A DNA stretch of 64,000 bases from Deltaproteobacteria bacterium HGW-Deltaproteobacteria-18 (GTDB lineage: Bacteria; Desulfobacterota; Desulfovibrionia; Desulfovibrionales; Desulfomicrobiaceae), in NCBI GenBank assembly GCA_002841885.1, contig PHBE01000013.1:1-64000 (forward strand), read 5' to 3'. Each line of letters begins with the position of its first letter. Within the stretch, counting starts at the first letter, position 1. Shown piece by piece: positions 56,810 to 64,000 of the stretch. Below the pieces are notes generated by a model. That model did no database searches. It was not told the origin of the DNA and saw only the letters and a list, made by a program, of their open reading frames with translations. A program made the translations under genes and the position numbers.

Positions 56810-57538
56810 TTACGCTTCAGGCCCGGAAAGATCGGGAAAGCGTTTCCGCAGCAGCAGCAGAGCCTGTTCGGCCGCGCCCTGTTCAGCCTTGCGCATGCTG
56901 CGCTCCTCCCATTCCACTTCGGTTTTATCCGGCATGGTTACGACGACGGTGTACTGCTTGGCGTGTTCCGGGCCGTGACTGTCGCGCAACGCGTATGAAG
57001 GCCGGGCCTTCCAGATGCGCTGGGTGGCTTCCTGCAACAGGCTTTTGAAGTCACGCGGGCGGAAGGTCTCCGGAGGCGCGGGCCACTGCCCCTCAAACAA
57101 AAAATTGACACATGTGATCGCGGACGCAAGGCCACCATCAAGGTAGACGGCTCCCAGCACCGCTTCCAGGGCATCGCTCAGCACGGAATTTTTTTCTCTT
57201 CCGCCCTGCACATCCTCCCCGCGGCCCAGGAGCAGGCATTCGCCGAGGCGAATCTTTCTGGCCGCCTGCGCCAGCGCGCCCTCACTGACCAGCGCGGAAC
57301 GCATTTTGGTAAGATGGCCTTCCTGCACTTCCGGGAATTTGCGAAATAATTCCTGGGATACAGCCAACTCCAGAACAGCATCACCAAGAAATTCGAGCCG
57401 TTCGTTATGCGGACAGGCGTGTTCATTGGCGTGGGAACTGTGTGTGAGAGCTTGGATTAAAAGCTTGACTTGCTTGAATTCATAATGGATTTCATTCTGC
57501 AGCGCTTGCAGTGCATCCGATGGAACTTCCAGTGACAT
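56810..57538 (-). CDS. rnc: Ribonuclease III
   Basis: Double-stranded-RNA endonuclease for rRNA and mRNA processing, 242 aa. The RNase III signature NERLEFLGDAVLE is at 45-57 (E49 and D53 among the metal ligands) and the second catalytic segment is SDALEAVLGAVYLDGG. A C-terminal double-strand-RNA-binding domain (about 165-235) with SLLQEATQ and KAEQGAAEQALLLL completes it. It starts only 11 bp from the divergent acyl-CoA synthetase gene. Normal length. Confidence 0.96.
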   Translation of the reverse strand: MSLEVPSDALQALQNEIHYEFKQVKLLIQALTHSSHANEHACPHNERLEFLGDAVLELAVSQELFRKFPEVQEGHLTKMRSALVSEGALAQAARKIRLGECLLLGRGEDVQGGREKNSVLSDALEAVLGAVYLDGGLASAITCVNFLFEGQWPAPPETFRPRDFKSLLQEATQRIWKARPSYALRDSHGPEHAKQYTVVVTMPDKTEVEWEERSMRKAEQGAAEQALLLLRKRFPDLSGPEA

Positions 57539-57549
57539 TAAGGTTCTCC

Positions 57550-59643
57550 ATGAGAGACGATTATCTTCACGCCCTATTTTCTCCCCAAGCTATCGCCGTT
57601 GTCGGATCATTCGACAGCGCAGGAGCCTCGGCCCGTGTCGTGCTTTCCAATCTTGAAGGCTGGGGGTATCAGGGGAGGATTGTTCCCGTCAATTGGACCT
57701 CCAGGCAGGCTCCCGGCAATCTTGAAGACCTCAAGGGGATCGACCTTGCGGTGGTCTGCCTTGTCCCTGAGCTTGTGCCCGACGCCCTGGAGCGGATCGC
57801 GGACATGGGCATCAAGGCGGTCATCATCACCTCCGCCGGATTTCGGGAGATCGGAGGGCAGGGCTACTACCTCGAAGAATCCATCATCCAGCTGGCTGAG
57901 CGCCGAAACCTGACCCTGCTTGGCCCCAACTGTCTGGGCGTGGCCTCCTGGGCCGACCATCTGAACGCATCGCTCATCTCCCGGCTGCCCAGCCAGGGCA
58001 ACATCGCCTTTTTTTCGCCGTCCGGATCCATGTGCAACGCAATTCTGGATTGGGCCGCAAGCGAGGATATAGGCTTTTCCAAATTCGCAAGCCTCGGTAA
58101 CCGCGCGGTCATCGATGAAGCGTCCATGCTCCAGTTTCTGGCCGAAGACCCCCAGACCAGCGTTATCATAGGTTACCTTGAGGGCATGAACAACGGCCGT
58201 CGTTTTGCGCGCATCAGCCAGACCATCACCCACGAAAAGCCGGTCATCATGCTGCAGGCCGGTATGACAGAACACGGGCAGAAGGCAATTTCTTCCCATG
58301 TGGGCGCTCTCACTGGATCGGAGCGGGCCTATCAGACGGCCCTGCGGCAGGCGGGCATCATCCAGGTGGACAATCTCTCCACTCTTTTCGACCTGGCGCG
58401 CATGTTCGGAACCCAGTCGCTGCCCAAGGGGCCGAATCTGGCCATCGTCACCAATTCCGGAGGAGCCGGGATTCTGGCCGCCGACGGAATGGCCGGGACC
58501 AGCCTCAACCTCCCGCGCCTTGGCCGCGATACGGCCGCCCGCCTGGCTGACGTTCTTCCCCGCCATGCGCAGACATCCAATCTTGTGGACATAGGCATGG
58601 AAGCCACTCCCGTGCAGTATGCCCAGGCCCTGGACACGGTGCTTCGCGACCGGCAGATTCAGATGGCCTTGCTGGTCATCGCTCCGGGACTTGGCGTGGA
58701 CCTGCAGGCCATCGTGCGCGAACTGGTCGCCTTGCCCAGGCCGGATGGCAAGACCGTTGCGGTCTGCCTGATCGGCCAGGAAGGGGTGATGGAAGAGAAA
58801 CGTTTTCTGCAGCGTCACGGCCTGCCCTGCTATTCCAACCCCAAGGCGGCGCTGGCCAGTTTCGAGGCCATGCTTCGCTATGCCGGGTGGAAGACCAAAT
58901 CCTACCCTGTGGAGGTCTGTTACCGCCGGGACAAGGCCAAGGCCGAGCGTTTTCTGAAGGACTGTCTGGATGTCCGCAAGACCGAGCTGTTCGGCTTTGA
59001 AATGCAGCCCCTGCTCATGGCCTACGAGCTTGGCTTTCCTCGTACGGAGCTTGCCCGCACCAGCAAGAGCGCGGTCAAGATCGCCAAGCGTTTGGCCTGT
59101 TCCGTGGCACTGAAGATTGCATCCCCGCATATCGAGTACAAAAGCGATGTGGGCGGGGTCGAGGTCAACCTGCAGACTTCCGAAGAGGTTCGCCAGGCCT
59201 TTTTGCAAGTGACCTCGCGCGTGCAGCGCCTGCGCAGCGAAGCCTTTGTCTCGGGCTGTCTGGTCCAGGAGATGATTCTGGGCAAACCGGCGGAAGTCTG
59301 CATCCGGGTCCAGCGCGACCCGAAATTCGGTCCACTGATCCGTTTCGGGCTGTCGGGCAGTCAGGCGGACATTTTTCAGGAGTATTCGATGCGCCTTGCG
59401 CCGCTATCCCTGGAAGACGCCTCCGGAATGATGCGCGAGCTCAAGGTCTTCTCTCTGCTCAAGCGGGAGCGCGGGCGCGACGCGCTGGACTTGAGGGCTC
59501 TTGAGGATGTATTGCTTACAGTGTCGCAGATGACTCTGGATTTTCCTGAAATTTACACCCTGGAGTTCGATCCTGTTCTGGTCACGTCGAGGGGGGCCTG
59601 GGTGGCCGGAGCGCGAATGTCTCTTTTGCCTCAGTCTGAATAG
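57550..59643 (+). CDS. NDP-forming acyl-CoA synthetase (fused alpha-beta)
   Basis: Enzyme that couples an acyl-CoA to NDP phosphorylation (acetate:CoA ligase, NDP-forming, type), 697 aa from ATG 57550, with AAGG 8 bp upstream; the frame opens further but there overlaps rnc. The N-terminal half has a CoA-binding Rossmann domain (IAVVGSFDSAGASARV), a ligase-CoA domain with the phospho-His segment SSHVGALTGSE, and the C-terminal ~220 residues have an ATP-grasp domain. It could conserve energy in acetate or other acyl metabolism. A DRTGG-domain protein follows after 49 bp. The acyl substrate is not determined. Confidence 0.88.
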   Translation: MRDDYLHALFSPQAIAVVGSFDSAGASARVVLSNLEGWGYQGRIVPVNWTSRQAPGNLEDLKGIDLAVVCLVPELVPDALERIADMGIKAVIITSAGFREIGGQGYYLEESIIQLAERRNLTLLGPNCLGVASWADHLNASLISRLPSQGNIAFFSPSGSMCNAILDWAASEDIGFSKFASLGNRAVIDEASMLQFLAEDPQTSVIIGYLEGMNNGRRFARISQTITHEKPVIMLQAGMTEHGQKAISSHVGALTGSERAYQTALRQAGIIQVDNLSTLFDLARMFGTQSLPKGPNLAIVTNSGGAGILAADGMAGTSLNLPRLGRDTAARLADVLPRHAQTSNLVDIGMEATPVQYAQALDTVLRDRQIQMALLVIAPGLGVDLQAIVRELVALPRPDGKTVAVCLIGQEGVMEEKRFLQRHGLPCYSNPKAALASFEAMLRYAGWKTKSYPVEVCYRRDKAKAERFLKDCLDVRKTELFGFEMQPLLMAYELGFPRTELARTSKSAVKIAKRLACSVALKIASPHIEYKSDVGGVEVNLQTSEEVRQAFLQVTSRVQRLRSEAFVSGCLVQEMILGKPAEVCIRVQRDPKFGPLIRFGLSGSQADIFQEYSMRLAPLSLEDASGMMRELKVFSLLKRERGRDALDLRALEDVLLTVSQMTLDFPEIYTLEFDPVLVTSRGAWVAGARMSLLPQSE

Positions 59644-59692
59644 TCGGGCCGTGATCGGAAAAATAATTTCGCAGTCCTGATCGGGAGGGAAT

Positions 59693-60754
59693 ATGGTAGG
59701 AATTTATGTAGGGGCGACATCCGGCTATTCCGGTAAAAACATGATTGCCATGGGGATCGGGCTCAAGCTGCAGAAAGAGGGCTACCGGGTCGGATACATG
59801 AAGCCGGTGGGGGCCTTGCCGCAGGAAAAGAACGGAGTGCTGGGCGATGCCGACGCGTTCTTCGTTCAGGACATTCTGGGTCTTTCCGACAACCCCACTC
59901 TGGTCACTCCCGTGGTCGTGGATCAGGATTTCAAGATGAAGGCCTTCACGGGCAAGTGCGAAGACCTGATGCCGCGCATCAAGGCCGCCTATGAAGAGCT
60001 CGGCAAGGACAAGGACGTCATGATCGTGGCCGGTTCCGGAAGCATGTACTCGGGCAAGTACTGCGGTGTGGACGGGATAAGCGTCGTCAAATCGTTGGGT
60101 ATAAAATCCATCATCATTGACCGTTACGTCAAAGAGCTCAATTACGATTATCTCATCGCCATGAAAGAACTGCTCGGCGAGCAGCTGCTTGGCGTGCTCC
60201 TGAACGACATTCCTCCGGTCTTCAAGGAAGAGCTTGATTCGCTTCTGCATCCGTTCATGGAGAGCAAGGGCATAAAGGTTCTGGGCAAGATCCCGTCCGA
60301 TCCGCTCATGGGCGCCATCAAGGTCGCGGATCTGGCCGACCGTCTGGGCGGCAAGGTCATCACCGCCCAGGACAAGTCCGAACGGGTGGTGGAGAATTTT
60401 CTGATCGGCACGATGCAGGTCGAAAATTTCATGACTCATTTCCGCAAGAGCAAGAAGTCCGCGATCATTGTCGGTGGAGACCGCTCCGACGTGCAGCTGG
60501 TGGCCCTTGAAGGGCAGTGTCAGTGTCTGGTGCTGACCGGCAATCTCTACCCCAACGACATCATCATGACCCGGGCCGAGGTCCTCGAAGTGCCCATTGT
60601 GGTTGTTCGTGACGATACCTTCACCGTGGCCAAGAAGATGGAAGCCATCCTGTCGCGGCACAAGTTGCGCGACGTGATCAAGATCCAGCACGGTTCACAG
60701 CTGGTCAGCTCCATCATCGATTTCCAGTACATGAAGGAAAGTCTTGGGATCTGA
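59693..60754 (+). CDS. Phosphotransacetylase N-terminal-like protein (AAA_26/DRTGG)
   Basis: 353-aa protein with an N-terminal P-loop, BioD-like domain (VGIYVGATSGYSGKNMIAMGIG, residues about 2-23, in which the usual GKT/S of the P-loop reads GKN) and a C-terminal DRTGG domain (about 215-325). This architecture is that of the N-terminal part of long phosphotransacetylases without the catalytic domain. It probably regulates acetyl-phosphate or acyl-CoA metabolism, suggested by the adjacent NDP-forming acyl-CoA synthetase. GGGAGGG precedes its ATG. It ends with a strong terminator. Confidence 0.83.
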   Translation: MVGIYVGATSGYSGKNMIAMGIGLKLQKEGYRVGYMKPVGALPQEKNGVLGDADAFFVQDILGLSDNPTLVTPVVVDQDFKMKAFTGKCEDLMPRIKAAYEELGKDKDVMIVAGSGSMYSGKYCGVDGISVVKSLGIKSIIIDRYVKELNYDYLIAMKELLGEQLLGVLLNDIPPVFKEELDSLLHPFMESKGIKVLGKIPSDPLMGAIKVADLADRLGGKVITAQDKSERVVENFLIGTMQVENFMTHFRKSKKSAIIVGGDRSDVQLVALEGQCQCLVLTGNLYPNDIIMTRAEVLEVPIVVVRDDTFTVAKKMEAILSRHKLRDVIKIQHGSQLVSSIIDFQYMKESLGI

Positions 60755-62816: not shown

Positions 62817-62916
62817 AAAAAAAGCCCCCGGACCTTGCGGTCGGGGGCTTTGTCATTTTGTGCAAATCCGCTTGTGCAGACGCGTCACTCCCCCGACCGT
62901 GATCCTGGAATCACGG
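62817..62916 (-). promoter_or_regulatory. Transcription attenuator of cimA (1:2, 2:3 and 3:4 structures)
   Basis: Minus-strand leader RNA. Region 1 CCGTGAT (62916-62910) pairs with ATCACGG (62903-62897). Region 2 CGGTCGGGGG (62899-62890) is a perfect 10-bp complement of region 3 CCCCCGACCG (62847-62838). Regions 3 and 4 form the terminator: AAAGCCCCCGACC (62851-62839) with GGTCCGGGGGCTTT (62834-62821), one bulged C, then seven T at 62823-62817. A ribosome stalled at the Ile codons of the leader peptide would cover region 1, free region 2 for pairing with 3, and prevent the terminator. Cells with enough charged tRNA-Ile would terminate before cimA. Confidence 0.8.
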
Positions 62917-62959
62917 AAATGAGAATAATAATGGAAATGGGGGTGACGATGTTTTTCAT
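62885..62959 (-). CDS. Isoleucine-rich leader peptide of cimA (24 aa)
   Basis: A 24-codon frame from ATG 62959 to TGA 62885 with AGGA 7 bp upstream. Ile is at positions 4, 8, 10, 11, 12, 14 and 17 (7 of 24), with Val at 5 and 16 and Leu at 13, so 10 of the 24 residues are branched-chain; three Ile codons are consecutive (10-12). The hydrophobic run is followed by P18, G19 and R21. It overlaps attenuator regions 1 and 2. Its role is to sense charged tRNA-Ile during synthesis; the peptide itself probably has no function. Confidence 0.78.
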   Translation of the reverse strand: MKNIVTPISIIILISVIPGSRSGE

Positions 62960-62977
62960 GTTTGTTTCCTGATCGGT

Positions 62978-63006
62978 TAGATGAACAATGGAGAATCGAT
63001 TGTCAA
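62978..63006 (-). promoter_or_regulatory. Promoter for the cimA leader
   Basis: A perfect -35 hexamer TTGACA at 63006-63001 on the minus strand is followed at 17 bp by CATCTA (62983-62978), a weak -10. The start would fall near 62971, leaving only about a dozen bases before the leader-peptide ATG. It is downstream of the lpxB stop, so cimA has its own promoter. Confidence 0.55.
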
Positions 63007-63065: not shown

Positions 63066-64000
63066 TTAAGGCCGAAGCATGGTGTCCAGGACGATTTTCG
63101 CCGCGCGCTCCGTTGCCCCGCCGTTGCCGAGCAGTGATGGCAGGGTGCCAAGTTGATCGAGGACGCGAGCTCTGGAGGGCGTCTCCTCGATCCATTGCGC
63201 CACGGCGGCGGCCATGGCAGCAGGGTTGGCGTCGTGCTGCAGGAATTCGGGGAAGACAGGCTCGCCCAGGATGAGGTTCGGCAGGGAGATGAAAGGCACC
63301 TTCACAAGCATGCGCCCCACAAGATAGGTCAGGTTCGAAAATTTGTAGGCCACGGCGGTGGGCACTTCAAGCAGGGCCGTTTCCAGCGTAGCGGTGCCCG
63401 AAGCGGCCATGATGGCCCGGCAGGAGCGCATGAGTTCGTAACGGGCGGAGCTTTCGACCAAGGTGACCGGAGTGTTCGAGACCCAGCAACTGCGGATCAG
63501 CTTCCGGTCCATGCCCGGAGCCACGGGCAATACGAATTCAAGATCCGGATAACGGGCGGCCAGCAGGGCGGCTGCGCGGGAGAAGATGGGCAGCAGGGAC
63601 GTGATTTCGCGTTTGCGGCTGCCTGGAAGGATGCCGATCCGGTTGTCGTGGCGGCGGACGTTCATGATCCGGGGCGTTCTGATGGAATCAAGCAGGGGAT
63701 GACCGACATAATCGATGGACAAGCCGTGCCGGGCGTAGAATTCGACTTCAAAAGGAAGGATGGAGACGAGACGGTCGATGTGGCCGCGCAGGAACGCAAC
63801 CCGGCCCTCCCGCCAGGCCCACAGCTTGGGACTGATGTAATACACGACGGGGATGCCCAGGCTCTGCGCTATTCGGGCTACACGGAAGTGAAAATCCGGA
63901 GCGTCGATGACTACTACAACGTCCGGGCGTGACGTTTCCAGCTGACTCTTCAGGGTGCGCAAAAGGCCCATGATTTTGGGCAGCTGGGCCAATACCTCGG
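63066..64000 (-). CDS. lpxB: Lipid-A-disaccharide synthase LpxB (3' part, cut by window end)
   Basis: Glycosyltransferase that joins UDP-diacylglucosamine and lipid X in lipid A synthesis at the inner membrane. The frame runs off the right edge, so the first ~70 residues are missing; the visible 311 residues have the family parts VVVVIDAPDFHFRVARIAQSLGIPVVYYISPKLWAWREGRV, FPFEVEFY-like PFEVEFYARHGLSIDYVGHPLLD, IGILPGSRKREI, ASGTATLETALLEVPTAVAYKFSNLTY and SLPNLILGEPVFPEFLQ. Active-site Ser/Gly-rich PGSR and EFLQ are intact. The stop is at 63066, just before the cimA promoter. A lipid-A pathway gene fits a Gram-negative chromosome. Confidence 0.93.
   Translation of the reverse strand, partial: EVLAQLPKIMGLLRTLKSQLETSRPDVVVVIDAPDFHFRVARIAQSLGIPVVYYISPKLWAWREGRVAFLRGHIDRLVSILPFEVEFYARHGLSIDYVGHPLLDSIRTPRIMNVRRHDNRIGILPGSRKREITSLLPIFSRAAALLAARYPDLEFVLPVAPGMDRKLIRSCWVSNTPVTLVESSARYELMRSCRAIMAASGTATLETALLEVPTAVAYKFSNLTYLVGRMLVKVPFISLPNLILGEPVFPEFLQHDANPAAMAAAVAQWIEETPSRARVLDQLGTLPSLLGNGGATERAAKIVLDTMLRP

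Follow-up and report, generated by a model that had tools for sequence, protein, structure and literature searches.

A putative isoleucine-specific transcription attenuator upstream of the citramalate synthase gene in Desulfomicrobium and Thermodesulfomicrobium

The citramalate synthase gene cimA of the genome studied here is very probably controlled by a ribosome-mediated transcription attenuator of the his/leu/ilv/trp type, in which charged tRNA(Ile) would govern expression of the gene. We arrive at this reading from the sequence elements in the window (the whole 64-kb stretch of DNA that was analysed) and from a comparison set of 348 genomes of Desulfovibrionales, in 229 of which cimA was located and the upstream regions were compared. 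The genome itself is designated G000, and its relatives are cited by genome code (G003, G020 and so on) and locus code (L038 and so on). The gene occupies positions 62730-61111 of the minus strand and matches TIGR00977 with 725.5 bits (cut-off 450), which confirms citramalate synthase as the downstream target named in the original prediction. The genes downstream of cimA sit on the opposite strand, and lpxB, the upstream gene, ends at 63066.

All elements of the leader lie on the minus strand between these two genes. A -35 hexamer TTGACA (63006-63001), which is present in 18 of the 18 relatives that carry the leader, is followed after a 17-nt spacer by a weak -10 candidate, CATCTA (62983-62978), whose CAT is kept in most Desulfomicrobium. 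The consensus promoter scan did not pick up this -10, and the canonical match of the promoter is limited to the -35. A Shine-Dalgarno sequence AGGAA (62970-62966) precedes an open reading frame of 24 codons (62959-62885) encoding the putative leader peptide MKNIVTPISIIILISVIPGSRSGE and closed by a stop codon at 62887-62885. Seven of its codons specify isoleucine (six ATT and one ATC), at positions 4, 8, 10, 11, 12, 14 and 17. Region 1, CCGTGAT (62916-62910), is the 5' arm of a 7-bp 1:2 hairpin with ATCACGG (62903-62897) as its 3' arm. Within the last leader codons, region 2, CGGTCGGGGG (62899-62890), forms the 5' arm of the antiterminator, a perfect 10-bp helix in which its partner is region 3, CCCCCGACCG (62847-62838), the segment common to antiterminator and terminator. 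The 3:4 intrinsic terminator (62851-62821, or 62851-62817 with its T-run; -23.2 kcal/mol) ends in seven T (62823-62817) and is found in 18 of 18 relatives. The parts that had been listed for this locus, namely the -35, the Shine-Dalgarno sequence, the 24-codon leader with seven Ile codons, the 7-bp 1:2 hairpin, the 10-bp 2:3 pairing and the seven-T terminator, agree with the sequence base for base.

This arrangement is not due to chance. The folding energy of the leader RNA lies 5.3 SD lower than that of dinucleotide shuffles, and at the Ile frequency of the window the binomial chance of at least seven Ile in 23 codons is 5e-5. A search of the 64-kb window for open reading frames coupled to terminators returned the cimA leader and two other frames (three reading starts), each of which resembles the final part of an ordinary gene together with that gene's terminator. 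The Ile codons of the leaders are 68% ATT, as against 16% in the genes of the window; the leader of G000 itself uses ATT for six of its seven Ile codons, although the codon is scarce in the window genes. The promoter region presents a further peculiarity. The stretch TTGACAATCGATTCTCCATTGTTCATC (63006-62980), spacer included, is nearly identical in 11 of the 15 Desulfomicrobium genomes, a conservation beyond the needs of a plain promoter, and a regulator site overlapping the cimA leader promoter is possible.

In the mechanism that we propose, transcription would begin downstream of TTGACA, and a ribosome following RNA polymerase would translate the Ile-rich leader. With ample Ile-tRNA, the ribosome would proceed to the stop codon and cover region 2, the 3:4 terminator would form, and transcription would end at 62817 before reaching cimA. 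When Ile-tRNA is scarce, the ribosome would stall at codons 8-17 and leave region 2 free to pair with region 3; the terminator would be pre-empted and cimA would be made. Without a ribosome, the terminator would be favoured at equilibrium. In the ribosome-free fold, codons 5-7, GTCACCCCC (62947-62939), pair with region 2 and the stop, GGGGGAGTGAC (62894-62884), and CCCCC is kept at this place in 10 of the 15 Desulfomicrobium leaders; the modelled pairing may offer an additional way of hiding region 2.

Folding with a masked ribosome supports this proposal. The mask was moved codon by codon and reached 13 nt past the A-site codon. In these in silico folds, for RNA not yet extended to region 4, the 2:3 helix had a mean probability over 17 genomes of 0.86 for a ribosome positioned on Ile codons and of 0.00 once it had reached the stop. 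The drop falls just past the last Ile codon in most of these genomes. For the full-length leader of G000, the minimum free energy structure was the antiterminator with the ribosome stalled at codon 12, and the terminator with the ribosome at the stop or absent. Folding of the leader RNA, which had been suggested as a check, thus gave the expected alternation, 2:3 for a ribosome stalled on Ile codons and terminator for one at the stop. When full-length leaders were folded at equilibrium with the ribosome stalled on Ile codons, roughly half of the genomes still favoured the terminator over 2:3, so we set equilibrium folding aside as proof of switching; in those genomes switching must be kinetic, with 2:3 forming before region 4. 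The original prediction had invoked the classic geometry, in which a ribosome waiting at codons 10-14 covers region 1. The attenuator itself was supported, but the modelled switch is better described by access to region 2: a ribosome would either stall ahead of region 2 or cover it at the stop.

The status of region 1 in relatives is relevant here. The 1:2 hairpin is a real 7-bp structure in G000 and is kept in most Desulfomicrobium, with 87% of cells paired across the relatives, but it is not universal: in G006, G011, G015 and Thermodesulfomicrobium it is disrupted or has changed shape. It has only 3 nt in common with the 2:3 helix. In the 2:3 helix, 91% of cells are paired. The shuffled value is 87%, with a single shuffle in 500 attaining the observed figure, and sliding the helix gives 34-70%. 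The compensatory changes that were to be looked for in relatives do occur in this helix: with the regions anchored by hand, one position alternates among species between G-C, C-G and U-A, and the next between U-A, C-G and U-G. Native partners of regions 2 and 3 also pair more stably than swapped ones (-23.4 versus -21.4 kcal/mol), with a permutation p of 1e-4 in a test that ignores relatedness. The GGGG/CCCC core of 2:3 is invariant and hence uninformative for covariation, and mismatched 2:3 helices occur in G008, G015 and G016. The 3:4 terminator helix displayed no covariation above shuffles because its core never varies, and it was given no weight in the case for the attenuator.

The taxonomic distribution of the element is sharply bounded. 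In two genera, every genome that has cimA (15 of Desulfomicrobium and 3 of Thermodesulfomicrobium, 18 in all) carries an Ile-rich leader, region 2 and the terminator ahead of it. The leaders have 20-27 residues and very different sequences, yet keep 4-8 Ile. In all 18 genomes the frame closes with a G-rich region 2 and is followed by a strong terminator, which was found in 17 of 17 scanned relatives and in G020. A covariance model was made from all of these genomes but G020 (17 of the 18) and run against the 348 genomes, where it retrieved exactly one copy per genome in the 18, ahead of cimA, including that of G020 at E=2e-9. The next match, in G228 (4e-5), was an ordinary terminator between chemoreceptor-like and Fur-like genes. 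Outside both genera, cimA is mostly found behind lysC and without such a leader (131 loci have a lysC C-terminal motif), and in genus g2 of the same family, represented by two genomes, cimA lies directly behind lysC with no Ile leader. The leader scan of 151 cimA loci beyond the two genera gave two formal matches, one of which (L089) is the end of a lysC gene and the other (L152) a weak hairpin with a chance reading frame. The prediction had staked itself on conservation in relatives, and leader ORF, 2:3 pairing and terminator are indeed kept in 18 of 18 genomes; the wider alignment with other Desulfovibrionales upheld conservation within two genera and not elsewhere, where cimA mostly follows lysC. 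Among the upstream regions compared, the putative attenuator is limited to Desulfomicrobium and Thermodesulfomicrobium.

A simpler account would take the hairpin as a mere lpxB terminator, give cimA a promoter of its own farther downstream, and dismiss the Ile-rich frame as fortuitous. A terminator is indeed expected in a gap that begins with the end of lpxB at 63066, and weak promoter-like matches are present between terminator and cimA in G004, G007, G014 and G010. However, a conserved -35 (18 of 18) and the leader ORF stand between the upstream gene and the hairpin, and region 2, which is inside that ORF, covaries with region 3. The upstream neighbour also varies, being lpxB in one set of Desulfomicrobium, a small gene whose product ends in ...EIKIAQ in others, and other genes in Thermodesulfomicrobium. 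The leader stays linked to cimA, with its terminator, whatever gene precedes it, so the terminator is not the property of one upstream gene. Furthermore, the distance from the T-run to cimA is 24-25 nt in Thermodesulfomicrobium and 35 nt in G006 and G015. A gap of 24-35 nt in these five genomes leaves no room for a separate promoter, and in Thermodesulfomicrobium cimA transcripts must pass through the terminator. A cryptic promoter past the terminator was rejected on the same grounds, its best sites being weak and the gap at most 35 nt in five genomes. We therefore consider the lpxB account very unlikely and retain attenuation.

It could also be argued that the product of the frame has a function of its own as a small hydrophobic peptide, such as a type I toxin of the Ibs kind, and that the frame is not a sensor whose translation is all that matters. 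Hydrophobic Ile-rich stretches are reminiscent of small membrane peptides, and the leader contains one of about 12 residues. Such a peptide is nevertheless hard to reconcile with a length and sequence that vary widely while the Ile codons and the RNA pairing persist, with C-terminal codons that are constrained through that pairing, and with a single copy per genome that occurs only ahead of a gene of the Ile pathway; we regard it as exceedingly improbable. The same slight probability attaches to another leader mechanism acting at this place through the terminator, be it a T-box, a riboswitch or protein-dependent attenuation. These systems share with the cimA leader a terminator and an alternative pairing, but they leave the Ile-rich ORF unexplained. 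Rfam was searched at gathering and relaxed thresholds. No Rfam family, riboswitch and T-box families included, matched in the window at gathering score, and the relevant weak matches, far under cut-off, were His_leader (RF00514) and Phe_leader (RF01859). Both align end to end with the cimA element, over ORF zone, antiterminator and terminator. The element scores 23.7 bits with the first, whose gathering score is 49, and 19.4 bits with the second, whose gathering score is 55; it also has other codons and another target, and is a member of neither family.

The distance between promoter and leader start differs among the genomes in a manner that bears on how an attenuator of this kind would be translated. 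The leader ATG lies 29 nt after TTGACA in Thermodesulfomicrobium (L050, L051, L217), and 30 or 33 nt after it in Desulfomicrobium G008, G006 and G015 (L040, L038, L046). This is approximately where a sigma-70 transcript would start, and the leader peptide may consequently come from a leaderless transcript. We tentatively offer, as a scenario that may well prove wrong, that the Ile-only attenuator arose inside Desulfomicrobiaceae as cimA left the lysC operon, and that the leader ORF is leaderless in Thermodesulfomicrobium and perhaps in Desulfomicrobium G008, G006 and G015. On a leaderless transcript, ribosomes would bind directly at the 5' terminus, and isoleucine would be sensed with no need of a Shine-Dalgarno sequence.

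The metabolic setting is consistent with control by isoleucine. A search of G000 with the ilvA model gave three weak matches, all below cut-off, and the best of them (55.9 bits; cut-off 411) was a CysK/M-CysS fusion. On this evidence from gene content, citramalate is probably the entry to 2-oxobutyrate and isoleucine in this organism. In a frame of the same genome (C2:163082-163660, locus L099), a cysteine synthase domain is joined to a cysteinyl-tRNA synthetase-like domain in a single open frame. The segment of the window that adjoins cimA (57511-60754, plus strand) encodes a 710-aa acyl-CoA ligase of the ADP-forming type, together with a relative of the N-terminal portion of phosphate acetyltransferase. 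No attenuator was seen at leuA, ilvB1 and ilvD of G000. At its second ilvB (C2:71407-73059, locus L095), a leader with a run of Val codons, MNRITANVSASLVVVVVVCVVMDALTL, is followed by a strong terminator, and a Val-run leader with terminator occurs at the second ilvB in at least 8 of 10 such loci of the genus (L095, L196-L200, L202 and L204 among them). This leader is probably a Val attenuator. It has the same architecture as the cimA leader, a leader ORF with a strong terminator, and differs from it in its Val codons, its acetolactate synthase target and its leader sequence.

Leader-peptide attenuation is textbook knowledge for the trp, his, leu, thr, phe and ilv operons. The enterobacterial ilvGMEDA and ilvBN leaders read Ile, Val and Leu or Val and Leu, and the operons under their control are those of acetolactate synthase or threonine deaminase. 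They share with the cimA leader the branched-chain codons in a short ORF and a competing antiterminator and terminator before a biosynthetic gene. Unlike them, the cimA leader is essentially Ile-only, has citramalate synthase as its target, and carries region 2 inside the ORF up to the stop. An attenuator of ilvBNC has been described in C. glutamicum (PMC11857589), as have other actinobacterial ilv leaders (PMC1262725, PMC11857589). These resemble the cimA leader as branched-chain leader-peptide attenuation outside the gammaproteobacteria (PMC11857589, PMC1262725), and differ from it in phylum and target. According to a survey of RNA motifs, the amino-acid attenuators of Rfam were then only those of His, Leu, Thr and Trp, Ile/Val and Phe attenuators being known but outside Rfam, and such motifs may have a gammaproteobacterial origin (PMC3766115). 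Neither citramalate nor isoleucine is mentioned in a survey from 2004 that dealt with regulation in metal-reducing deltaproteobacteria (PMC545781). Our search covered the open-access literature; nothing in it linked citramalate synthase with leader-peptide attenuation, in keeping with the original statement that no described case was known. Within that literature, the mechanism is known, and what seems new is cimA as its target and the Ile-only leader.

The citramalate entry to isoleucine is the route of many anaerobes and a target of biotechnology. The cimA leader would tie transcriptional control of this entry directly to the charging of Ile-tRNA and would extend leader-peptide attenuation to sulfate-reducing Desulfobacterota. 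The distribution of the leader provides a natural before/after comparison, of cimA behind lysC without attenuator and cimA alone with one. Considered alongside the Val leader of the second ilvB, which these cells also carry, the cimA leader suggests that isoleucine and valine are sensed separately at two branch points.
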